A DNA stretch of 44,524 bases from Bacteroidales bacterium (GTDB lineage: Bacteria > Bacteroidota > Bacteroidia > Bacteroidales > UBA932): assembly GCA_024398295.1 (NCBI GenBank), contig JAKSJL010000008.1, forward strand, positions 1 through 44,524, read 5' to 3'. The number at the start of each line of letters is the position of its first letter. The first letter of the stretch is position 1. Shown piece after piece: positions 347 to 23,874 of the stretch. The translations under genes were made by a program, and so were the position numbers. The notes beneath the pieces are model-generated. The model did no database searches. It had not been told where the DNA came from and saw only the letters and a list, made by a program, of their open reading frames with translations.

Positions 347-2188
347 TTACTCCTTCAGTGTCGTGCTGAGAATGACCGTCTCTCCTGCAGGGACGGTCAG
401 CTCGAAGCCACAGATGCTCGTTCCCGGTATCGGAGTATCGAAATCAGAGAAGATATAGTCGTAGTCTTTCGGGTCTGAGCTCCACTGCTTATAGCTGATT
501 TTCACGCGCTTAGGCGACGACGCATGGAGTTTCAGAGTCACATCTCCCTGGGTCAGGAGGATGCAGTTTCTCCTCACATTGACCTTCGCCGGAGTCACCA
601 AGGTCCAGCGCACGGAGGCAGATCTATCAGATGGAGCTGCCAATGTATCCGCCACCTCCAGATAGTCTTCATCCACCACAAACACTCCCCTTCTCGCCTG
701 TTTGAGATCGCCACCGAAGACTGCTGTCATGTCCAGCACGGCGCCAAGCTTCGCGCCCTCAGGGCAGGTGTGGACAATCTTCGCAAAGCCACCCACGAAG
801 TGGTCTTTATCATTGACCGTGAGAGTGTTATGCTGATGGTTGTTATATCTGAAAAAGCGCCAGCGGAGTGACTTCTGGTCCATATCCCACAGGCTTCCAC
901 CAGCCTCCTGGACCCTCACCTCGCTACCGGCATACGGCTGGCGGTCCATATCCATGGCCCAACGATAGCCATGGGCATCATAGACGAAACTGCCCGCGTC
1001 CATATGCGCATGGACAGACCCCGCCTGACCCGCCTTTATGCCCAGGAAACGGTCTGACGGCGAGAACGTCCAGTCGGTGTGGACCATGGCGACAGGCGTG
1101 ATACCATTGCCCGAGAAGAACTTCTCACGCACAGCCGGAGCTGAAGACTCTGACGGCATTCTCGCCGCCCACGACATCAGCAGAGGGATGAAACGAATGT
1201 TCTCCCTGCCCGTGTACTGCTTTTTCTTCAGCAGAGCGATTTCATGCTCAAGGAAATCGTGTCGGCCCTGCTTCCAGGCGAAATACCATAGCGGAGTGGC
1301 AGGCATAGGCGCCGATGCATTGTCGGCGTAGTTAAACGCCATGCCTGTCGTACCGACCGTGAATGTCTGGAAAAGAGCAGTCCTCTCGAAGCCCGGGGTG
1401 GATGCTGCGAGACCGAAATCCGTGCCAAGGATATCCTCCATCGCAGTAAGCATAAGCACCTCATACATAGTTCCATAAGCCCAGTAGACAGGACCTTCTG
1501 GATAGTTTCCGTCAGGATAGTATCCGGTGTCCATCGCACTTGAATTTGTCTCCACAGCCCTCTCGATGATTTCCTTGGTCATCGGGTCCTCTGGGCCAAG
1601 CACAGACAGGGAGGCCATCACGAGGCCTGAGTTGCACACCTGGTTCCAGTTATTCGTCATGATGTAGAACTGATGAGGCGCCAGGGCCGGGATGACCGCG
1701 AATTCCCTCACCGTCTTCTCGCATTTCGCCTTCAGCTCCACAGGGATAGCATCGTAGAGCCAATCGTAGCCTATGGCGACTGCAGTGGCCATCTCACACG
1801 GGTCCAGGAAGTGCTTCGTGTTCCAGTCGGGAAATGCGCAGACCGTCTCGAGGTCGAAAAGAGCATGCTGGAGATAGCTCTTTTCGCCCGTGAAACGGTA
1901 TGCGTACGCGCAGGCTCCTATCCTCAGCATCGCCTCGCGGCTCCTCTGAAGAATGCGCCTGCCGCTCGCATCGTGACGGTACTCGACCGGGGTCTCGACC
2001 TTGACGCAGCTGTCGGCCAGCTCCATGATCTGCTGATGAAGAAGAGTCACCGCCTCATCGCCCGCCACCAGCTTCTGGCGCGCCGCCGAAAGCTGAGCAT
2101 CGCTCATGAGAAGCCTCGGATGAGAAGGCTGCGCTAGTGCGTTGAGGCAGAATACGAAAGCTATAAGCAGAAATGCTCTTTTCATCAT
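347..2188 (-). CDS. Secreted heparinase II/III-type polysaccharide lyase
   Basis: A 613-residue protein with a cleavable signal peptide (about residues 1-20, ending NALAQ). The N-terminal half is an alpha-helical toroid as in alginate and heparin lyases, with NNWNQVCNSG at 179-188 and YPEGPVYWAYGT at 229-240. The second half is a beta-sandwich heparinase II/III domain marked by HAHMDAGSF at 393-401 and HNTL at 453-456. Enzymes of this fold cleave uronic-acid-containing polysaccharides by beta-elimination in the periplasm or at the surface. The exact lyase family and substrate cannot be read from sequence alone. The gene is monocistronic, divergent from the xanthine operon, and has no SusC/SusD partner beside it. 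The start is the first of two adjacent ATG codons; either would give the same signal peptide. Confidence 0.8.
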   Translation of the reverse strand: MMKRAFLLIAFVFCLNALAQPSHPRLLMSDAQLSAARQKLVAGDEAVTLLHQQIMELADSCVKVETPVEYRHDASGRRILQRSREAMLRIGACAYAYRFTGEKSYLQHALFDLETVCAFPDWNTKHFLDPCEMATAVAIGYDWLYDAIPVELKAKCEKTVREFAVIPALAPHQFYIMTNNWNQVCNSGLVMASLSVLGPEDPMTKEIIERAVETNSSAMDTGYYPDGNYPEGPVYWAYGTMYEVLMLTAMEDILGTDFGLAASTPGFERTALFQTFTVGTTGMAFNYADNASAPMPATPLWYFAWKQGRHDFLEHEIALLKKKQYTGRENIRFIPLLMSWAARMPSESSAPAVREKFFSGNGITPVAMVHTDWTFSPSDRFLGIKAGQAGSVHAHMDAGSFVYDAHGYRWAMDMDRQPYAGSEVRVQEAGGSLWDMDQKSLRWRFFRYNNHQHNTLTVNDKDHFVGGFAKIVHTCPEGAKLGAVLDMTAVFGGDLKQARRGVFVVDEDYLEVADTLAAPSDRSASVRWTLVTPAKVNVRRNCILLTQGDVTLKLHASSPKRVKISYKQWSSDPKDYDYIFSDFDTPIPGTSICGFELTVPAGETVILSTTLKE

Positions 2189-2213
2189 AATTCAGGAATA
2201 GTTTTCACCAGCA

Positions 2214-2221
2214 CAAATATA
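2214..2221 (-). promoter_or_regulatory. Bacteroidota -7 element (TATATTTG) for the lyase gene
   Basis: TATATTTG on the minus strand matches TAnnTTTG and lies 25 nt upstream of the lyase start. No clear -33 TTTG is seen at the expected distance. Confidence 0.5.
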
Positions 2222-2252
2222 GATAAAATCGACGTTTGAGTCCGAAAAATTG

Positions 2253-2282
2253 TTTGCCTGAACGCTATTTTCACTAAATTTG
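2253..2282 (+). promoter_or_regulatory. Promoter of the xanthine salvage operon
   Basis: TTTG at 2253-2256 and TAAATTTG at 2275-2282 are separated by 18 nt, fitting the Bacteroidota housekeeping promoter. It is about 73 nt upstream of the phosphoribosyltransferase start and shares the divergent intergenic region with the lyase promoter. Confidence 0.65.
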
Positions 2283-2355
2283 CAGCCGTCATTCGCCTTG
2301 AGCGTGAATCGGACACCCATTGCACAGAGAAAACTATTAAACACTCACATACACC

Positions 2356-2931
2356 ATGAACTTCCTCGAAGAAAAGATCCTCGCAGACGGCGTGATCAAA
2401 GCAGGAAACATCCTGAAGGTGGACAACTTCCTCAACCACCAGATCGACATCGACATCATGAGGCAGATAGCCTATGAGTTCAAGCGCCGCTTCCGTGGGC
2501 AGACAGTCACCAAGATACTCACCATCGAGGCGAGTGGCATAGCCATCGCGACCATGCTCGCAGACCTCTACGACGTGCCAGTGGTATTCGCGAAGAAGGG
2601 CGAGACAGCAAACAGCACCGACGACAAATATGTCTCTCAGGCATACTCCTTCACACATAAGCGCATGAACAATGTCTTCGTGTCAAAGCCCTATCTGAAC
2701 CAGGGCGAGAGGGTCCTCATCGTGGATGACTTCCTCGCAGACGGACAGGCCATGCTCGCGCTCATCGACATCGTCAAGCAGGCAGGCGCCGAGGTGGTAG
2801 GCCTCGGAGTGGCCATTGAGAAAGGCCAGCAGAAGGGAGGACAGATCCTCCGCGAAGCAGGATATCATCTCGAGTCCATTGCCATCATCGAGGGCATGGA
2901 CAGCGAGGCACAGACCATTAACTTCAAATAA
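2356..2931 (+). CDS. xpt: Xanthine phosphoribosyltransferase
   Basis: A 191-residue type I phosphoribosyltransferase, close to the length of Bacillus Xpt. It converts xanthine and PRPP to XMP and pyrophosphate in the cytoplasm, feeding GMP synthesis. The PRPP-binding loop VLIVDDFLADGQA is at about 120-132. The N-terminal MNFLEEKILADGVIKAGNIL and the KKGE hood region near 80-83 are typical of Xpt rather than Hpt or Gpt. It is followed after only 9 nt by an NCS2 nucleobase permease, which supports a salvage operon. The roughly 70-nt leader holds no purine-riboswitch-like fold that I can recognise, unlike Firmicutes xpt leaders. Confidence 0.92.
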   Translation: MNFLEEKILADGVIKAGNILKVDNFLNHQIDIDIMRQIAYEFKRRFRGQTVTKILTIEASGIAIATMLADLYDVPVVFAKKGETANSTDDKYVSQAYSFTHKRMNNVFVSKPYLNQGERVLIVDDFLADGQAMLALIDIVKQAGAEVVGLGVAIEKGQQKGGQILREAGYHLESIAIIEGMDSEAQTINFK

Positions 2932-15374: not shown

Positions 15375-16247
15375 ATGAAATTTGACGAATTTTGCAGCCT
15401 CAACGGATGCACTTCAGAGAACAACATAGCCATACTCCAGAACTGCCGCTGGCCGGAAGGCCCTTTTACCCCGGAGTTCAACATTGTCATGTACTCGAAC
15501 GGCGGTGAGGCGCAGCTGAACGTGAAGGGAAGAGACTACACTCTCTCCAGGAAATGCATGTCTGTATTCAGAAAGGGCCAGACTGTGCAGATACGCGAGA
15601 TGTCGCCGAATTTCCGTTACAATGTCCTCGCCATCGGAGGCGACATCGGCCAGGAGTTGAGCGTGAGCAGCGTATTCCTCGGCCTTTTCATCCTCGACGA
15701 GACGCCTGTACTGCGAGTCACTTCGGAGTACGCCGAAGCGACCATCCTGTTCTTCGGCGCGATGGAGAGAGTGATACGCTTCTCTGCGAATCCATATAAG
15801 AATGAGTGCGTCCTGAGCCTTCTGCGTGCATTTTTCTACAGTACAGGATACTACCTGAACAAGGCTCTGCGCTTTAACTGTGCCGACCTCTACAGACTCT
15901 CTGTGGAGCATCAGCAGGACAAGGCGAGCCTCATCACCAGATTCATAAACCTGGTGGAGACACATGCCCAGAAGAACAGGAAGATGTCCTTCTATTCTGA
16001 GAAGCTGGGCTATAATCCCAAGTATCTAAGCGCCGTAGTCAAGAAGGAAACCGGCCTCAGCGGCCAGGACCTCATAGACCAGTATGCTGTCCTTGGCGCC
16101 ATGGCCAAGCTCTCATACGCGCACAAGAGCATAAAGGAGATAAGCAACGAGATGGAATTCCCGTCACAGTCCGATTTCGGAAAGTTCTTCAAGCGAATGA
16201 CGGGGCAGAGCCCACTCGCCTACAAAAAGCAGAGGCGCAGCCGCTAG
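15375..16247 (+). CDS. AraC-family transcriptional regulator
   Basis: A 290-residue protein with an N-terminal cupin-like sensor part (about 20-150) and a C-terminal AraC/XylS DNA-binding domain (about 195-288). The second helix-turn-helix is visible in KSIKEISNEMEFPSQSDFGK, followed by the family ending FFKRMTGQSPLAYKK. It is divergently transcribed from the acyl-CoA synthetase/SDR operon and is the obvious candidate regulator of it. Its stop codon overlaps the stop of the convergent aminotransferase gene by 4 bp. The effector is unknown; a fatty or aromatic acid would suit the neighbours. Confidence 0.88.
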   Translation: MKFDEFCSLNGCTSENNIAILQNCRWPEGPFTPEFNIVMYSNGGEAQLNVKGRDYTLSRKCMSVFRKGQTVQIREMSPNFRYNVLAIGGDIGQELSVSSVFLGLFILDETPVLRVTSEYAEATILFFGAMERVIRFSANPYKNECVLSLLRAFFYSTGYYLNKALRFNCADLYRLSVEHQQDKASLITRFINLVETHAQKNRKMSFYSEKLGYNPKYLSAVVKKETGLSGQDLIDQYAVLGAMAKLSYAHKSIKEISNEMEFPSQSDFGKFFKRMTGQSPLAYKKQRRSR

Positions 16248-17416
16248 AGCAGCCCCGCAAGTATGCGTACTCCCTCTTCCATGCGCTCAGAAGCGAGGAA
16301 GGAGAAGTTCATGCGCATGGTGTTCAGCCCACTTCCGTCAGTGCAGAAGAACGCGCCTGCCACATATGCGACGCCTGCGGCCAATGCGCGGTCGTAGAGC
16401 TTCACTGTGTCGAACCCTTCAGGAAGGGTGAGAAACAGGAAGAGTCCGCCCTCTGGATGCGTCCAGCTCACACCTTCAGGCATATACTTCTCCAGAAGCG
16501 AGAGGAGTAGGTCCCTCTTTGTGCGATATAGGTCAATGCTTTTCGCCAGATTACGGTCAAGCATACCGCTGGACATGAATTCTGCAGCGATGTACTGGTC
16601 CATGATAGGAGGACACAGGTCCAGCGACTGCTTGCAGACATAGATCCTGTCCAGAAGCTCCGGAGCGCCTATTATCCAGCCAAGCCTGAAGCCAGGAGCA
16701 AGTATCTTCGAGAAAGAACCCAGATGCAGGACGCGCTCAGGACAGAGCGAATAGATGGTCTGCACAGGCTCGCCCTCATACCTAAGCTCCCTATATGGGC
16801 TATCCTCAACTATCAGGAAATCATATTCTTCCGCCAGCGAGACGAGCAGTTTCCTCTCCTCGAGATCAAGGGTCTCTCCGGATGGATTCTGGAAATCAGG
16901 GATCATGTAGAGAAACTTGACCTTCTTCCCAGTAGCCAGGCACTCCTCTATGGCAGTACGCCATTTCCTCTCCCACTGAGCTATATCTGAGTCATGCTGG
17001 ACGCCCACGAGCTCTGCCCTGTAGGACCTGAAAGACTGGAGAGCTCCCAGGTAGGAAGGATTCGAGGTCAGAATCACATCACCCGGATCCACAAGGATCC
17101 TTGTGCAGACGTCGATACCCTGCTGGGAAGAAGAGGTGATCTGCACGCGCTCCACAGGCACGCCATAGCGTGCCGACACGGCCGCGCGTAGCTCAGGCAC
17201 GCCCTGGGTCGCGCCGTACTGGAACGCCTTCGCCCCGTACTTGTCTATCACCGCGGCGCTCAGGGCCTTGATATCCTCCAGCGGGAAGGTGGACGCATGA
17301 GGATATCCTCCCGCGAAGGAGTATATCTCATTCAGGTCCACTTTCTTGAATATCTCCCTCACAGGGGAGCGGAAGAAGGAGAAGGTGTCTTCCGAAAAGA
17401 ATCCGCTATACTCCAT
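16244..17416 (-). CDS. PLP-dependent aminotransferase, LysN-like; candidate DapC of the lysine operon
   Basis: A 390-residue fold-type I aminotransferase. The PLP lysine is Lys237 in SFSK, with Asn177 in PDFQNPSG, Asp205 and Tyr208 (EDSPY) as further cofactor contacts. An arginine near the C-terminus (NTMRMNFS) is in place for the carboxylate. The sequence resembles the 2-aminoadipate aminotransferase/MocR-catalytic subgroup rather than the classical ArgD/DapC type. It is the last gene of a tight operon dapE-lysC-dapB-dapA-dapD, only 3 nt after dapD. The succinylase pathway needs an N-succinyl-diaminopimelate aminotransferase exactly at this step, so I infer that role. A general branched-chain or aromatic aminotransferase is the alternative. 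Confidence 0.78.
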   Translation of the reverse strand: MEYSGFFSEDTFSFFRSPVREIFKKVDLNEIYSFAGGYPHASTFPLEDIKALSAAVIDKYGAKAFQYGATQGVPELRAAVSARYGVPVERVQITSSSQQGIDVCTRILVDPGDVILTSNPSYLGALQSFRSYRAELVGVQHDSDIAQWERKWRTAIEECLATGKKVKFLYMIPDFQNPSGETLDLEERKLLVSLAEEYDFLIVEDSPYRELRYEGEPVQTIYSLCPERVLHLGSFSKILAPGFRLGWIIGAPELLDRIYVCKQSLDLCPPIMDQYIAAEFMSSGMLDRNLAKSIDLYRTKRDLLLSLLEKYMPEGVSWTHPEGGLFLFLTLPEGFDTVKLYDRALAAGVAYVAGAFFCTDGSGLNTMRMNFSFLASERMEEGVRILAGLL

Positions 17417-17419
17417 CCC

Positions 17420-18193
17420 CTATCTCAGCAAATCCTCCAGGGAGGTAGAACTGTCAGTCTTCGAATCCCTGTACTTGACGATCACAGGGCAGTAGAGATG
17501 GATACCTGCCTCTGCGCCAGGACCCTTGGTCACAGGACGCGAGCCAGCGACCACCACAGCGCCTTCCGGCACTACCATCTGGCCGTTCTCGTTGCGCCTT
17601 ATCCACTCGCCCGTAGTGGCATCGTAGATGGCTGTGGAGGCATTTATGATGACTCCCGTGCCTATCACCGCGTTCTCACGCACGATGGTACCCTCGTAGA
17701 TGCCGCAGTTTCCACCTATGAAGACATTGTCCTCAATGATCACCGGGAGCGCTCCGACAGGCTCCAGCACTCCACCTATCTGCGATGCCGCAGAAAGGTG
17801 CACGTGCTTGCCTATCTGCGCGCACGAGCCTACGAGCGCATGCGAGTCTATCATGGTGCCCTCATCCACATAGGCGCCCACATTCACGTAGGCAGGCGGC
17901 ATCATCACCACCGATGGGGCGAGAAACGCACCTCTGCGCACTGAGCTGCCCCCTGGCACTATCCTGACGCCATCCTCCACGGTGAACTTCCTCACTGGAT
18001 AGGTGTCCTTATCCAGAAAGCCTCCGGGCATCTCGGTGAGTCTTCCCAGTCTGAATCCAGACAGGATCACCTGCTTTACCTCCGGGTTCACCACCCATCC
18101 GTCCTCTGTCTTCTCGGCGACTCTGATCTCGCCATTCTCAAGCCCTTCCATCGTAGAGTCGAAGAGCTCTATCTGTCTCAAGATTTCTTCCAT
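17420..18193 (-). CDS. dapD: Tetrahydrodipicolinate N-succinyltransferase
   Basis: A 257-residue left-handed beta-helix transferase that moves succinyl from succinyl-CoA to tetrahydrodipicolinate. It matches E. coli DapD through most of its length: [10 protein letters not shown] and GWVV near the N-terminus, the acidic motif [16 protein letters not shown], then [14 protein letters not shown] and GGVLEP. Hexapeptide turns follow ([18 protein letters not shown]), and the C-terminal [14 protein letters not shown] matches LYCAVIVKKVDAKT. It is about 17 residues shorter at the N-terminus than the enterobacterial form. It shows that this organism uses the succinylase branch, not the acetylase or LL-DAP aminotransferase branch. 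Confidence 0.94.
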
Positions 18194-18195
18194 GA

Positions 18196-19083
18196 TTAAA
18201 AAAGTTCAGCAAGTGTCTGTCTCATAATTTCTTCCGTCTCCTCAGTAGCTGGGTAGAGCGGCAGACGGAGGCTATTCTCCATGAGGCCCATCTGAGAAAG
18301 CGCGGCCTTCGCAGGGATAGGGTTCGACTCGATGAAGCAGTTCTTGAAGAGCGGCATGAGCTTGTAGTGAAGCTCGCGCGCCGTCTTCATATCGTCCTGC
18401 GCGAGCGCATTCACCAGCTTCACCATCCTCACAGGGTCGATATTCGACGCCACGCTGATCACGCCATCGGCGCCGGTCGCCATGAGCGAGAGGGTCTCGT
18501 CATCATTGCCACTCAGCACAGAGAACCCTTCAGGACGGTGGCGAAGGATCTGCGAGATCTGGCCATAGCGGCTTGATGCCTCCTTCACGGCCACGATGTT
18601 CTCCACCTCCTCGGCCAGCCTCAGAGTGGTCTCAGCCTCGATGTTCGAGCCCGTACGGCCGGGAACATTGTAAAGGACAATATCCTTGTCCGTCGACTCC
18701 GCCACGGCCTTGAAATACTCGAAAAGGCCCTTCTGGGTGGGTTTGTTGTAGTAAGGCACCACCACCAGGAACGCGTCGGGGCCGAAAGGCTCCAGCACCT
18801 TGATGCTCGCGATGGTCTGTGCCAATGAGTTCGTGCCGCCTCCCACGATCACAGGCTTTCCCTGCGAGTGCTCCTTGGTCACCTGAAGTATCTTTATCTT
18901 TTCCACATCGGTGAGGCATGGGGTCTCGCCCGTAGTGCCCAGAGGCACGAGGAAATGCGCTCCCGCTGCGACCTGACGGTCAGTGAGCTTGGCGACGGCG
19001 TCGTAGTCGACCGCGTCACCATTGTTCGTGAATGGTGTGAGCAAGGCTGTACCACAGCCCGCAAAATGTATATGGTCTGCCAT
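18196..19083 (-). CDS. dapA: 4-hydroxy-tetrahydrodipicolinate synthase
   Basis: A 295-residue TIM-barrel aldolase condensing pyruvate with aspartate semialdehyde. The Schiff-base Lys167 lies in AVKEAS, Tyr138 in LYNVPGRT, and GTTGE is at 49-53. Length is typical. It lies third from the end of the DAP operon, with 2 nt to dapD and 6 nt from dapB. The lysine-feedback residues at the dimer interface cannot be judged by eye. Confidence 0.96.
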
Positions 19084-19089
19084 AGTAGT

Positions 19090-19761
19090 CTAGATGTTGA
19101 AGATGATGTCCTTGAACTCGTGGACACCGTTTAGGTTTTCTGTACGGAGAGCTGCCTCCACTGCGCCTGCCGCGAATCCTTCCCTCGAGAAGGCCTCGTG
19201 AGTCAGGGTGATCCTGTCATTCGCGCCCTCGAAGCCGAGGGTGTGGATGCCTGGGATCTCGCCGCAACGGATGGAAGCGATGTCTGGGGCCGCGCCCATG
19301 TTTGCCTCCACAATGTCGGCAATGGACTTGGCGGTGCCACTTGGGCGATCCAGCTTGTGAGAGTGGTGCTTCTCCTCCACGAAGGCGCTGTACCCACCCG
19401 CGTCAGCGAGCATCTTCGAGAGATAGTCGGAGGCGGCGAAGAATACATTGACACCAATGGAGAAGTTTGAAGCATAGATCATGGTGGTGCCACACTTCTC
19501 GAAGCACGCCACTACCTCATCCTTGATGTCGTTCCAGCCGGTGGTACCTATTACCACAGCCTTGAAGTTCTCCGCAAGGAAAGCATAGTTCTCCCTGAAG
19601 GCCGCTGGGGTGGTAAAGTCAATGCACACGCACTCCTTCGCCACTGCAGGATCCACGCTCTTTATGTCTTCACTGGCACAGACGCACTCTATGCCTCTGA
19701 GTCTTAGGTTGTTCTCTACCATATGGCCCATCTTGCCATATCCTGATATGATGACTTTCAT
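19090..19761 (-). CDS. dapB: 4-hydroxy-tetrahydrodipicolinate reductase (short form)
   Basis: A 223-residue Rossmann-fold reductase making tetrahydrodipicolinate with NAD(P)H. The nucleotide motif GYGKMG (7-12), GTTGW (72-76), ASNFSIGVN (97-105), the catalytic HHSHK (132-136) and DRPSGTA (138-144) are present. It is clearly shorter than the E. coli enzyme (273). The shortening lies between the first strand and CIDFT, where part of the usual nucleotide-binding half is missing, as is common in Bacteroidota. It is 2 nt downstream of lysC. Confidence 0.93.
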   Translation of the reverse strand: MKVIISGYGKMGHMVENNLRLRGIECVCASEDIKSVDPAVAKECVCIDFTTPAAFRENYAFLAENFKAVVIGTTGWNDIKDEVVACFEKCGTTMIYASNFSIGVNVFFAASDYLSKMLADAGGYSAFVEEKHHSHKLDRPSGTAKSIADIVEANMGAAPDIASIRCGEIPGIHTLGFEGANDRITLTHEAFSREGFAAGAVEAALRTENLNGVHEFKDIIFNI

Positions 19762-19763
19762 AG

Positions 19764-21119
19764 CTACTCGAAAAGTGAATGGTGAATACTGTTCACGGAC
19801 TCGATGAGCACGGCTCTGTCGACGACCACTGAAATATTGATATAGGATGCGCCCTGTGAGATCATGTAGAGCTTCTTTCCTCTGAGTGCCTCAAGCATCT
19901 TCTGCATCAGGCCCTCGATGTTCACAAGGTTCTTTCCGATGACGGAGATCTGCGATTTGTCGCCATCCATCTCGACATCAGCGAACTCTGAAAGCTCCTT
20001 CACGACCTTCTCGATGTTCTTCGGATGCTGGTCACAGGTGACTGAGATGTTCGCCTCGGTGGTGCTGATAAGGTCCACGGAGACATTGTTCCTGCTGAAG
20101 ATGTCGAATACCTTGGAAAGGAAGCCGGAAGCGTCGATCATCTTCGTGGTGAAGATGTTGATGACCTGGATATTCTCCTTGAATGAAACTGACTTCACGC
20201 TGTCCTCAGCGGTCGCGGTCTCGATGATGAGGGTGCCGGAACCTGCTGGATTCATGGAGTTCAGCACATAGATAGGGATGTTCTCGCGCACAGCAGGCTC
20301 GATGGTGAGAGGATGTAGCACCTTGGCGCCGAAATGCGCCATCTCGGCTGCCTCCTCGAAGGAGATGGTGTCGAGCTTTCTCGCGCCCTTAACCACTCTA
20401 GGATCTGCAGTGAGTACTCCGTCCACGTCGGTCCAGATCTCGATAGCCTCCACATTCATGGCCATGCCGATAAGGGATGCGGTATAGTCAGAGCCGCCTC
20501 TGCCGAGCACCGAAGGCATGCCCTCGACGTCGCTGGCGATGAAACCCTGGGTGATGACCGCCTTATGGCTCTTCATGGCGGCGCCTACCACCTCTGGCAC
20601 CAGCTCACAGATACGCTCGCTCTGAGGCTCACCCTTCATGAGGTCGCCCGCAGTGATGATCATCTTTCGTGCATCAAGCCACTCGGTGCTGATGCCTTTC
20701 GCATTCAGGGCGTAGCTGATGATGGTCGAAGAGAGCAGCTCACCGTTTGACACGATGAAGGCCCTGCTTCTGTCGCTGAGCTCGCCCAGAGCGCAGACTG
20801 CGATGACGAACTGCTCGAGCTCGTCACAGATCTCATTCACTCCGGAGATGGCAGGAAGCATGTAGCCTGCATTACCCTCAAGGAGCTCGTCCACGGTCAC
20901 CACGTGCCTCTCACGCAGCTCCGAAAGGAGCGCCATCGCGCTCTTGTGGTCCTTGCGGGCCGCTGTATCCGCTATCTTGTAGAGGAGGTCAGTCACTCCT
21001 GACATTGCGGAAACGACCACCACAGGCTGTTTGTCGACCTTCGATCCAATGATGTCGATGGTCCTGGAAATCGCTTCTTTGCCGGCGACGGATGTGCCGC
21101 CGAATTTCATTACAATCAT
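19764..21119 (-). CDS. lysC: Aspartokinase (monofunctional, lysine-type)
   Basis: A 451-residue enzyme phosphorylating aspartate, the first step to lysine, threonine and methionine. The N-terminal kinase motif is KFGGTS (5-10), with LGRGGSDYTA near 240 and DVDGVLTADPRVV near 262. Two C-terminal ACT domains (about 305-451) bind lysine or another effector. There is no fused homoserine dehydrogenase, unlike the ThrA-type enzymes. The length and placement in a dap operon match E. coli LysC. A tiny 2-nt gap to dapB and 7 nt from dapE indicate one transcript. Confidence 0.94.
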   Translation of the reverse strand: MIVMKFGGTSVAGKEAISRTIDIIGSKVDKQPVVVVSAMSGVTDLLYKIADTAARKDHKSAMALLSELRERHVVTVDELLEGNAGYMLPAISGVNEICDELEQFVIAVCALGELSDRSRAFIVSNGELLSSTIISYALNAKGISTEWLDARKMIITAGDLMKGEPQSERICELVPEVVGAAMKSHKAVITQGFIASDVEGMPSVLGRGGSDYTASLIGMAMNVEAIEIWTDVDGVLTADPRVVKGARKLDTISFEEAAEMAHFGAKVLHPLTIEPAVRENIPIYVLNSMNPAGSGTLIIETATAEDSVKSVSFKENIQVINIFTTKMIDASGFLSKVFDIFSRNNVSVDLISTTEANISVTCDQHPKNIEKVVKELSEFADVEMDGDKSQISVIGKNLVNIEGLMQKMLEALRGKKLYMISQGASYINISVVVDRAVLIESVNSIHHSLFE

Positions 21120-21126
21120 AGTTCGT

Positions 21127-22155
21127 TTATATATTTTTCAAAGTTTCAAACATTCTTACATACTGGTCACGCGCCTGCTCCAGCTCAGAGAGGGTGATCT
21201 GCTCCTCTGGCCTGTGCGCGACGAGTATGGACCCTGGTCCGCAGAGTATCCTCTGGGGGAAGTTCGTGAGCTGAGGGGCATCGCTGCCGAAAGCCACAGT
21301 CTTTGTAGGGAAACCCTCCAGGGTGGTGTAGCTCATAGGAGTGTCACCGCCGAGGGCTTCAAACTCAAGCCTAGGGCGCCCATCTACCTGCCCCATGGCC
21401 TCAGCCTGCTCGCGCACGAACGCCTCTATCAGGCTGTCCGACGCAAAGGTGGTTCTGAAGTAGAGCCTGCACTCCAGGCTCTCGCTGAGTATGTTCTGAG
21501 GGTTGTCACTGGAAAGCTTGCCAATGTTCCAGGTAGTAGGGCCGAGCTGCCCATCCTCCGGCCACTGATGGGCCTTCAGGCGCTCCAGGAAGGCAGAAAA
21601 GTTCATCACGGCACTCTCTCCCATCTCGGGATAGCCGGAGTGGAAGGCTCGGCCGTGGAAGGTCAGGCGGAAGGCCTTCGTGCCCTTGCTGGCACTCACC
21701 ATGCAGCCGTCGGTCGGCTCGCCGACGATCACGACGCGGCCGCCAGGGTGCTGCGTGCGGAAGGCCTTGGCTCCGAAGGAGCCCGTCTCCTCGCCGCTGA
21801 GCAGCAGGAGGCCGAAGCCGCTGTGCCCTCGCGCCTCGAGCTCCAGACACGCGCTGTAAAGCGCGAATATCTGGCCCTTCGCGTCGCAGGTTCCGCGGCC
21901 TCTGAAGACGGTCTGTCCGTCCTCTTGCTCCACCTTTGGAGCGATATAAGGAGGGACGGTGTCCATATGCGAGCAGAACACTATCTCGGGCTCGCCCCAG
22001 CAGAAGAAAAGGTTCTCGGTACCGTCTCCGACCTCGAAACGCTCAAGGGTGCATCCAGGCGTCTTCAAGGTCTTCGCGAGATGCTCTGACAGTGTCCTCT
22101 CCCCGCCGGAAGTGGACTCAATCCCAAGCATGTCCATGAATAGTTCGATATTCAT
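21127..22155 (-). CDS. M20-family deacylase, probable N-succinyl-diaminopimelate desuccinylase
   Basis: A 342-residue di-zinc M20 peptidase. Metal and catalytic residues are in place: His63 and Asp65 (SHMDTVP), Asp91 (GTCDAKG), Glu122/Glu123 (GEETGS), Glu146 (GEPTD) and a C-terminal His in LVAHRPEEQI. The family includes DapE, ArgE and N-acetylcitrulline deacetylase, and sequence alone does not separate them. As first gene of an operon otherwise devoted to diaminopimelate, desuccinylation of N-succinyl-LL-DAP is the best assignment. It starts 20 nt after an attenuator terminator. Confidence 0.82.
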   Translation of the reverse strand: MNIELFMDMLGIESTSGGERTLSEHLAKTLKTPGCTLERFEVGDGTENLFFCWGEPEIVFCSHMDTVPPYIAPKVEQEDGQTVFRGRGTCDAKGQIFALYSACLELEARGHSGFGLLLLSGEETGSFGAKAFRTQHPGGRVVIVGEPTDGCMVSASKGTKAFRLTFHGRAFHSGYPEMGESAVMNFSAFLERLKAHQWPEDGQLGPTTWNIGKLSSDNPQNILSESLECRLYFRTTFASDSLIEAFVREQAEAMGQVDGRPRLEFEALGGDTPMSYTTLEGFPTKTVAFGSDAPQLTNFPQRILCGPGSILVAHRPEEQITLSELEQARDQYVRMFETLKNI

Positions 22156-22174
22156 AAGTCAAATTCGTGTCAAC

Positions 22175-22210
22175 AAAAAAAAGAAGGCGAACCGCCGGGG
22201 CTCGCCTTCT
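22175..22210 (-). terminator. Attenuator terminator in the leader of the lysine operon
   Basis: On the minus strand GAAGGCGA and TCGCCTTC form a perfect 8-bp stem (plus one A:T) around an 11-nt GC-rich loop, followed by eight T. It lies between the promoter at 22333-22363 and the first gene at 22155, so transcription must pass it to reach dapE. The loop bases 22192-22201 are complementary to 22254-22263 in the leader-peptide coding region. Confidence 0.88.
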
Positions 22211-22239
22211 CGTATCTTTCTTCGCTTTTTCAGTTCAGA

Positions 22240-22314
22240 TTACTTCATAGAGGACCCCGGCAGACTGCACACCTGCTTCTTGCACTTGGAATCCTGCTTT
22301 ATGAAAGACATCAT
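22240..22314 (-). CDS. Lysine-rich leader peptide of the dap/lysC operon attenuator
   Basis: A 24-codon frame (ATG ATG start, TAA stop) begins about 12 nt after the predicted transcription start. It encodes MMSFIKQDSKCKK followed by QVCSLPGSSMK. Five of 24 residues are lysine, three of them clustered at codons 10, 12 and 13, where slow charging of tRNA-Lys would stall a ribosome. A stalled ribosome would cover 22288-22295, the arm that otherwise pairs with 22251-22258, and leave 22254-22263 free to pair with the terminator loop. This is the geometry of his, trp and thr leader peptides. It is too short for usual gene callers. An alternative start is the second ATG. There is no Shine-Dalgarno sequence, as usual here. 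Confidence 0.75.
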   Translation of the reverse strand: MMSFIKQDSKCKKQVCSLPGSSMK

Positions 22315-22332
22315 ATCTATAACTGATTTCTG

Positions 22333-22363
22333 CAAATGTAAAGATTATTTCTTGCTTTCCAAA
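22333..22363 (-). promoter_or_regulatory. Promoter of the lysine biosynthesis operon
   Basis: On the minus strand TTTG (22360-22363) and TACATTTG (22333-22340) are separated by 19 nt, an exact fit to the Bacteroidota consensus. The predicted start near 22326 gives a leader of about 170 nt before dapE. Confidence 0.78.
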
Positions 22364-22392
22364 CTTTTGCCTAAAAAATTTTAGTAAAAAGT

Positions 22393-23874
22393 TTAGTTCA
22401 TCTTGTATGGCTGTCTGTAAACCCAGGTGTCGCGCTTGTAGTTCTTCATGTCCTCCCAGAACTGATCGCCGTCGTGAACAGTGGTGGTCTTGTCATTGAA
22501 CACTACTACAGGCTTGGTCTCAGGGTTGTAAACCTCCCAGCTGAACTTCTTGGTGTTTGGAACGCCGTCCTTTGCGAATGATACCCATACGTCGCTCATG
22601 AAGTCAGCCATCTCGTAGCAAGACTTGTCGCAGCCTACCATGAAGCGGCCGAGCCAGATGTTGTTGAATACGAATGGCATCTCTACGCAGTGGTTTGTAG
22701 CGAAGGTGTCATCCATGTGTGGAGATGGCTTAGCGAATACATAGAGGTACTGCTTGGTGTCACCGAGCTCGTAACGGATGTCAGCATTCTTGTAAACACC
22801 GTTGAGCATACCATACTCAGCATAGTTGCAGCCGATGATGGTAGGGATACCCTTTGAGATCTCTGCCACGCGTGGATCTGTAGGCTGGTAAGGGATGAAG
22901 TCACCGTCAAACACAGGACCGAACCACATACCGGCACCATAGATACGATAGAAGAAATTCTCAGGATTCTTCTCACATACTACCTCTGTAGCTGCAGCGA
23001 GGAGCTCAGAGTAAGGGATCTCCTGGATCTTGTCGATGGTCTTCTCGTTGAGGCCGAGTCTAGCTACGATAGCATTTGCCATCTCCTTAGCTCTATCCTG
23101 CTCCATGAAGTTGATCATTGAACCACTCTCGATGATACCCTTGTTGAAGAGGCCCTTTGCAGAAGGGGCTACGAGCATGCTGTTCACCTTGCCGCCACCA
23201 CCTGACTGACCGAAGATGGTCACATTGTCAGGATCGCCACCGAAAGCCTCGATGTTCTTGTTTACCCACTCGAGTGCCTTTACGATATCGAGAAGGCCTA
23301 CATTTCCTGAATACTTGTACTTCTCGCCGAAGTCAGAGATATCCATGAAACCGAGAACGTTGAGTCTGTGGTTGAGGTTCACGAGGACTACATCCTTCTT
23401 TGCGAGGTTTGTTCCATCGTAGAAAGGAAGCTCACTACCTGCACCCATTGCATAGCCACCACCATGGAGCCATACCATTACTGGACGCTTCTTGCCGTCG
23501 TTGATGCCCTTGGTCCATACATTAAGGAACTGGCAGTCGTCTGACTGAGTACCATCGTCCCACTGATAGAGGAATGCCTCACAGTCATCCTCCCAGGTCT
23601 TTCTAGGAGCCTGGTGGCACTGTGCGCCATAGTAGAGAGCGGTCTGTACGCCCTCCCAGCTGTCTGGGTCCTGAGGGGCCTCGAAGCGGTTTGCCTTGGC
23701 ATACTGGATGCCCTTGAAGGTGTAGATACCATCCTCGATATAGCCAGATACGGTACCGTAGGTGGTCTTCACGAGAGCGGATGTGCTGTCACAGATGAGG
23801 CTGTGCTCCTCTGTGCCACAGCAGCATGCAGCGACCATGAGGCCCGCTGCTGCGATTGAAAGAATCTTGTTCAT
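22393..23874 (-). CDS. Type-B carboxylesterase lipoprotein
   Basis: A 493-residue alpha/beta hydrolase of the carboxylesterase/cholinesterase family, taken from the ATG at 23874 (another in-frame ATG lies two codons upstream). The signal peptide ends VAACC, a lipobox, so it is probably lipid-anchored. The oxyanion motif HGGG (137-140), nucleophile elbow FGQSGGGG with Ser224, and a downstream His in TNHCVEMPF are present. SEDCLYLN-like QSDDCQFLNVW at about 110-120 is the family marker. Such enzymes cleave carboxylic esters of small or aromatic alcohols. It is last in the HTCS-esterase-carboxylesterase transcript and is probably part of the same uptake locus. Substrate unknown. Confidence 0.87.
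   Translation of the reverse strand: MNKILSIAAAGLMVAACCCGTEEHSLICDSTSALVKTTYGTVSGYIEDGIYTFKGIQYAKANRFEAPQDPDSWEGVQTALYYGAQCHQAPRKTWEDDCEAFLYQWDDGTQSDDCQFLNVWTKGINDGKKRPVMVWLHGGGYAMGAGSELPFYDGTNLAKKDVVLVNLNHRLNVLGFMDISDFGEKYKYSGNVGLLDIVKALEWVNKNIEAFGGDPDNVTIFGQSGGGGKVNSMLVAPSAKGLFNKGIIESGSMINFMEQDRAKEMANAIVARLGLNEKTIDKIQEIPYSELLAAATEVVCEKNPENFFYRIYGAGMWFGPVFDGDFIPYQPTDPRVAEISKGIPTIIGCNYAEYGMLNGVYKNADIRYELGDTKQYLYVFAKPSPHMDDTFATNHCVEMPFVFNNIWLGRFMVGCDKSCYEMADFMSDVWVSFAKDGVPNTKKFSWEVYNPETKPVVVFNDKTTTVHDGDQFWEDMKNYKRDTWVYRQPYKMN

Follow-up and report, generated by a model that had tools for sequence, protein, structure and literature searches.

Classical amino-acid attenuators are known from the trp, his, leu and thr operons of E. 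coli and are covered by leader families in Rfam. For lysine genes, the textbook regulator is the L-box riboswitch. As far as the available text of a comparative study goes, L-box riboswitches are named for lysine genes and no conserved RNA structure is reported upstream of lysine operons of Actinobacteria (PMC1262725). In Sinorhizobium meliloti, the 5' UTR preceding an aspartate dehydrogenase gene harbours a translated short frame (SEP5), in which six Thr and three Lys codons are clustered and which, according to excerpts of the paper, was suggested as a possible leader peptide (PMC10117765). Excerpts on Flavobacterium psychrophilum give clues of leader-peptide attenuation upstream of amino-acid biosynthesis operons (PMC9723704), and those on B. 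thetaiotaomicron mention short frames reminiscent of leader peptides (PMC7366714). Neither these excerpts nor those of PMC4833913 describe a lysine attenuator. Moreover, neither a lysine leader peptide nor a lysine attenuator was found in the open-access literature at the level of titles and the beginnings of abstracts; our claim of novelty is limited to that scope.

The window, i.e. the whole stretch of 44,524 nt analysed here, belongs to a Bacteroidales genome of 2.09 Mb in 125 contigs (76% complete), apparently assembled from a metagenome and falling into a large genus of uncultured gut bacteria. An earlier note on this DNA had claimed a promoter, a 24-codon Lys-rich frame and a terminator ahead of dapE, and all three are indeed found on the minus strand where it had placed them. 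The promoter-like site (22333..22363) consists of TTTG at 22363-22360, a spacer of 19 nt and TACATTTG at 22340-22333, and was typed by the promoter consensus of Bacteroidota. It sits between the upstream gene and the leader peptide frame MMSFIKQDSKCKKQVCSLPGSSMK, which runs from ATG at 22314 to TAA at 22240 (22240..22314, 24 codons) and contains five Lys codons at positions 6, 10, 12, 13 and 24. The intrinsic terminator (22175..22211) has a 13-bp stem in the predicted fold (-21.6 kcal/mol), its hairpin spanning 22211-22181 and its eight T occupying 22182-22175. The leader of 176 nt folds better than all of 200 dinucleotide shuffles (z -3.17).

Taken alone, the Lys content of the frame is a weak sign (binomial p ~0.017 at an assumed 6.5% Lys; the neighbouring proteins contain 5.3%). 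To assess the combination of frame and terminator, the two strands of the window were scanned under strict conditions, requiring a perfect stem of at least 7 bp, a loop of 3-9 nt, T6 and a preceding ATG frame of 15-35 codons. It returned one terminator per strand, and the Lys frame (with its two ATGs) was the only frame combined with a terminator. The same scan found no such combination in 30 first-order Markov resamples of the window.

Known regulatory RNAs were searched with Rfam. At the gathering threshold no riboswitch matched in the window or in ten related lysine loci, and at a lax threshold the region 22100-22450 yielded no riboswitch and a single match (E 3.9) to an unrelated family on the opposite strand. 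An L-box lysine riboswitch was rejected as its covariance model does not match in the window, the ten lysine loci and one His locus; a T-box leader was rejected likewise for the window and related loci. No Rfam leader family matches the window element, which also sets aside a known leader RNA.

Directly behind the leader follow dapE, lysC, dapB, dapA and dapD according to NCBIfam/Pfam, all on the minus strand, which confirms the dap/lysC operon named before. The first gene (21127..22155) encodes a dapE-like M20 deacylase of the dapE/argE type; it scores below every curated NCBIfam cut-off shown, hence the name dapE rests on the neighbouring genes. The best model for lysC (19764..21119) is the lysine-sensitive type of aspartate kinase, just under its cut-off. 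Next are dapB (19090..19761), dapA (18196..19083), dapD (17420..18193) and a class I/II aminotransferase (16244..17416), which judged from its context probably provides the DapC step.

The earlier note had suggested an alignment of the regions upstream of related operons. This revealed 11 species in which a Lys-rich frame, a terminator and a pairing between leader and terminator precede lysine genes; covariance searches place all of them in two genera of one family. In relatives, the regions ahead of dapE and lysC yielded the leaders of G032, G030 and G083, and these built a four-sequence covariance model together with the window (G000). Among 400 genomes of the genus, the model matched 42, nine of them at E 1.5e-7 or better (G000, G347, G032, G263, G083, G030, G368, G328 and G409) and 33 at E 2.2e-4 to 0.1; a leader is absent from all three loci read out of these 33 weak genomes (L110, L111, L116). 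A nine-sequence model searched against 199 genomes of the family added G797 and G815, so that the element occurs in both genomes examined of a second genus. A further search with the lysine model matched 14 genomes, comprising five known leaders and nine weak matches; all nine were read (that of G224 being L110) and turned out to be two Leu leaders, one His leader and six leaderless loci. In 393 genomes of the order, model R2 matched 24 at E 0.01 or better including the window genome, and the seven loci read outside the family (L132-L137, L141), out of 23 weak genomes, contained no leader. A search for dapA matched 181 genomes; in the best 28 from other families, the dapA locus likewise showed no Lys-rich frame combined with a strong terminator over a distance of up to 1.5 kb.

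The 11 leaders share their layout. TAnnTTTG begins 21-44 nt upstream of the start of the covariance model, Lys codons are clustered ahead of the first gene, and a terminator lies between frame and first gene in every species, with predicted hairpins of -11.6 to -21.6 kcal/mol. The gene following the leader is dapE-like in nine species and lysC in the other two (G030 and G368). The operon frames read in G368 are lysC, a dapB-like frame without a family match at the strict limit, dapA and DAP dehydrogenase. As dapE is not among them, the leader follows the lysine genes rather than dapE. The operon of G797 consists of a dapE-like frame, asd, lysC, a dapB-like frame, dapA and dapD.

Within the frame, the alignment on the Lys cluster shows Lys10 and Lys13 in 11/11 species and Lys6 in 10/11, G409 having Lys at codon 7. 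Codons 6, 10 and 13 are written as either AAA or AAG, hence it is the amino acid that is held and not the bases. Altogether, Lys accounts for 45 of 283 codons in the 11 frames. A comparison of G000 with G347 reveals a fully identical element (144/144), as opposed to 480/597 just downstream and 176/200 upstream. Three other pairs contrast less (element versus downstream: 138/142 vs 555/600, 127/129 vs 587/598 and 115/142 vs 332/591), the second of them without any excess of identity in the element.

These data bear on the idea of a chance frame in front of a constitutive terminator or a terminator of the upstream gene, with the operon being driven otherwise. Most relatives examined do lack the element and G012 has a hairpin with T-run but no frame, as such a coincidence might have it. 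Yet 11 homologues conserve their Lys codons with synonymous change, identity reaches 144/144 against 480/597 in the following gene, a promoter-like site separates upstream gene and frame, and 0/30 resampled windows contain the combination. We therefore give a chance frame hardly any credence. It also appears very improbable that the leader senses general translation or Ser, Gln, Cys or Arg instead of lysine in particular: Ser, Gln and Arg recur in the cluster too, but only Lys is held at its positions 10 and 13 (11/11), a lysine gene comes next in 11/11, and in the same family His codons precede hisG.

A further alternative concerns the nascent chain. TnaC and SpeFL are arrest peptides, in which the nascent chain senses a ligand within the ribosome. 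Accordingly, the peptide encoded here might sense free lysine or another ligand rather than cause stalling by uncharged tRNA, and the invariance of F4, Q14, L18 and G20 in the first four leaders aligned would be in line with this. In the second genus, however, most non-Lys residues are changed while three Lys and L18 stay. Moreover, codons 18-20 overlap arm 2, the leader strand described below, so that RNA pairing can explain their conservation. An arrest peptide thus seems very improbable.

Arm 2 (CUGCCGGGGU, 22254..22263, minus strand) is located inside the leader frame and represents the putative antiterminator strand. Its partner, arm 3 (GCCCCGGCGG, 22192..22201, minus strand), forms the top of the terminator hairpin. 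The helix 2:3 proposed earlier, 10 bp including two G:U, is borne out with -24.5 kcal/mol and 0/500 and 1/2000 shuffles of the leader arm as good. With arm 3 set shorter, the window yields -21.0, a value attained by 2/500 shuffles and 4/500 synonymous recodings; such recodings are less selective in other species (8 to 214/500 as good). A 2:3 helix exists at the equivalent place in 11/11 species, with 10 bp in the window and G347 and 5-8 bp in the other nine. In each of them, a leader strand located at the conserved Leu18 or immediately behind it pairs with the upper 5' arm or the loop of the terminator, and by sequence this pairing and the terminator are mutually exclusive.

Arm 2 was shuffled 2000 times in eight representatives. 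Shuffles as good numbered 1 in G000, 191 in G030, 55 in G083, 45 in G032, 384 in G328, 578 in G409, 107 in G797 and 12 in G815, i.e. the helix is not significant by itself in G328 and G409. Combined over the eight, p is ~4e-6, or 2e-4 without the window, values that are indicative since the rows are related. In G815 both sides are changed, with GUGGAAC:GUUCCAC where most species have GGGG:CCCC. A clear co-evolution between arm 2 and the terminator of the same species could not be established: swaps between species support it weakly (866/20000 permutations as good), this test being weakened by the GGGG:CCCC shared among most species, and the leader of G030 pairs better with the terminator of the window (-33.2) than with its own (-12.2). 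The earlier note had regarded it as unusual that the antiterminator pairs with the loop and not the stem. This view needs correction, as the C-rich element of the relatives takes in the upper 5' stem. It is hence a normal arm 3, placed higher in the hairpin of the window.

The protector helix is a different matter. In the window, arm 1 (AGGAUUCC, 22288..22295, minus strand) can form the claimed helix 1:2 with GGGGUCCU at 22251-22258, comprising 8 bp with two G:U. It is not conserved, though, and with 32/500 and 66/1000 shuffles as good this helix alone is near chance in the window. Per 1000 shuffles, 66 are as good in G000, 693 in G030, 23 in G083, 11 in G032, 479 in G328, 212 in G409, 899 in G797 and 519 in G815 (combined p 0.03). 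The helix thus clearly exceeds its shuffles in two representatives, G083 and G032; it is marginal in the window and fails to exceed them in five of the eight. G083, G263 and G032 have 1:2 helices of 10-12 bp. Consequently, the three-helix scheme does not hold as a conserved whole, nor does the element qualify as a strict attenuator of the trp/his type. We file it as an attenuator in the broad sense.

The influence of a translating ribosome was evaluated in silico on transcripts cut before the 3' half of the terminator, with an assumed footprint masked that extends from 15 nt ahead of the P site to 13 nt counted from the first base of the A site. This folding serves as a check of plausibility and not as evidence of function. 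In the window, the predicted probability of helix 2:3 is 0.97 with the ribosome at K6, K10, K12 or K13, 0.0 with the ribosome at K24 or the stop codon and 0.96 without a ribosome. Hence helix 1:2 alone does not block 2:3, and the off-state would be the ribosome at the stop codon. The frame also ends with a Lys codon (K24), and a stall there would mask arm 2. Full-length equilibrium folding with ribosome masks was abandoned in favour of the cut transcripts, being uninformative for the window, where the terminator wins in every ribosome state (0.98-0.99); the switch must therefore be kinetic, i.e. a matter of timing.

Among the 11 species, helix 2:3 is predicted to be lost (0.0) at the stop codon in seven, window included. 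These are the short-tailed leaders, in which 9-12 nt separate the end of arm 2 from the stop codon. With the ribosome at a Lys before arm 2 they range from 0.71 to 0.97, except for G368 at K13 (0.44) and G815 at K15 (0.03). The four long-tailed leaders (21-22 nt; G083, G263, G032 and G328) retain 0.66-0.98 at the stop codon, and masking at this position does not explain them in the model. Without a ribosome, only G032 (0.0) and G328 (0.2) of these four lose 2:3, and G328 is low also when stalled (K13 0.09, K15 0.16). Two mechanistic claims of the earlier note are affected. That a ribosome stalled at Lys10-13 would free arm 2 is in line with the modelled 0.97; helix 1:2, to which arm 1 contributes, is not conserved. 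Coverage of arm 2 at the stop codon, leading to termination, appears as the better supported off-state, the long-tailed leaders excepted.

Based on this analysis, the element would work as follows. RNA polymerase transcribes the leader with a ribosome behind it. If lysyl-tRNA is scarce, the ribosome would stall at Lys codons 6-13 and arm 2, which starts 12 nt beyond the final Lys codon of the cluster, would stay free and pair with the top of the terminator while the 3' half of the latter is still to be synthesised. The terminator would be prevented and transcription would enter dapE-lysC-dapB-dapA-dapD. With plentiful lysyl-tRNA, the ribosome would arrive at the stop codon and cover arm 2, and the terminator would form. 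The parts, their conservation, the positions of Lys and the exclusive pairings are visible in the sequences; we infer that the leader is translated and that stalling and read-through respond to lysine. On the comparative evidence, we assign a probability of roughly 0.87 to the element being a ribosome-mediated transcription attenuator that senses lysyl-tRNA.

Similar leaders precede other amino-acid operons of the family and support this reading independently. hisG was found in 7/14 genomes tested, and all seven loci (L158-L164), including that of the window genome, have a His-rich frame with terminator upstream. The leader-to-terminator helix comprises 8-11 bp there, with 1-6/300 shuffles as good. 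The leader of the window genome (L159, G000:C73, upstream of hisG at 2009-2551, minus strand) is of this kind (MNMIMNIHSHHHHHFQKIW), and no Rfam family matches in this locus. Leu leaders with terminators upstream of leuA were met as weak matches of the lysine model in G972 (MNTRINFMLSLLLLGLFSRLEGILYK, L165) and G911 (MNTRINFLLSLLLLGLFNRREGILYKKA, L166). With arm 2 chosen automatically, 82 and 49/300 shuffles are as good; with arm 2 set by eye, the helix GAGGGCA:UGCCCUC leaves 5/300 each. G964 (L172) likewise carries a Leu leader (MNLMYILLALSLLLHVV) and terminator before leuA, its helix not being significant (39/300 shuffles). No Leu leader was seen at leuA in seven loci of the main genus. As judged from these sequences, the codon cluster appears to match the pathway for His, Leu and Lys, with one exception. 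G964 possesses a His leader (MIQRININKHHHHHIFQIGRYPLL) with terminator at L154 (G964:C26:35000-35077, minus strand) in front of a gene that, by its sequence, we take to be AnmK-like (anhydro-N-acetylmuramic acid kinase). hisG was not found in the G964 genome, and L154 is perhaps an attenuator orphaned after loss of the his operon.

The Lys leader itself is patchily distributed. It is present in 4/66 lysC/dapE loci read with the model, and most relatives examined are without it. The genus loci similar in LysC make up the 66 together with L002 and L018, with L098 repeating L034; seven have less than 170 nt upstream of the first gene found, too short for the whole element. L032, L039, L086, L090 and L097 were omitted from the upstream listing, and L099 had no lysC. 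A terminator kept without Lys frame, which the earlier note would have counted against attenuation, occurs once among the loci read. The case is G012 (L002, G012:C21; LysC 71% identical to that of the window), where a hairpin GAAGCG...CGCTTC with T-run lies near a promoter-like site upstream of dapE and the frame is only ATG TGA. It is possibly a decayed attenuator.

In a quick LysC tree of 73 rows, which carries a long-branch warning, the ten rows with leader require at least five changes, three of them forced by starred branches; five leader rows, window included, form one starred clade. L179 (G263, too short), the repeats L097, L098 and L155 and G012 with its other locus L032 were left out. 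We infer that the element is old and was lost many times, reading absences as losses; horizontal transfer is a possible alternative.

Leaderless loci show features of their own. An inverted repeat GCAAAGAA...TTCTTTGC of 8-11 bp is found just upstream of dapE in L043, L049, L052, L054, L055, L060, L064, L065 and L067, directly behind the -7 box with almost constant spacing and often followed by T. In the variants L070, L077, L091 and L093 the arms are changed on both sides. Inverted repeats of at least 5 bp after the -7 box occur in 22/60 loci, not all of them of this kind. The repeat may be an operator or a 5' hairpin replacing the attenuator. In L047, L048, L053 and L057, an apparent 3' end of an rRNA operon, presumably 5S-like, with a terminator stands shortly before lysC. 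In this subgroup lysC thus appears to be located behind rrn, an arrangement that would account for the contig breaks.

Taken together, our data suggest that the element is probably an undescribed, lysine-specific, ribosome-mediated attenuator and the lysine member of a wider set (His, Leu, Lys) in one Bacteroidales family, and that this element was repeatedly lost and follows the lysine operon when the pathway goes from the succinylase to the dehydrogenase route. If the leader reads lysyl-tRNA, a new amino acid would be added to classical attenuation, and attenuation would be brought to Bacteroidales, where we found little on it. With two tail lengths and a change of pathway among them, the 11 naturally occurring leaders would allow the minimal requirements for such a switch to be tested.

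In comparison with described systems, SEP5 differs by its mixed Thr/Lys codons and its alphaproteobacterial host, and the excerpts of that paper mention neither terminator nor antiterminator (PMC10117765). The clues from Flavobacterium psychrophilum concern the same phylum, but the amino acids are unnamed in the excerpts and the word lysine is absent from the main text (PMC9723704). L-box riboswitches likewise control lysine genes at the RNA level, whereas the window element has a short frame and no Rfam match. The His leader before hisG of the window genome has the same arrangement of short frame, terminator and leader strand pairing with the 5' arm of the terminator, with His codons instead of Lys. 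Like classical attenuators, the window element combines a leader rich in the amino acid of the pathway, an antiterminator strand within the frame and an intrinsic terminator ahead of the first gene; unlike them, it would sense lysine, its helix 1:2 is not conserved and arm 3 occupies the top of the hairpin. As far as searched, the attenuator is not new in principle but in the amino acid that it would read.
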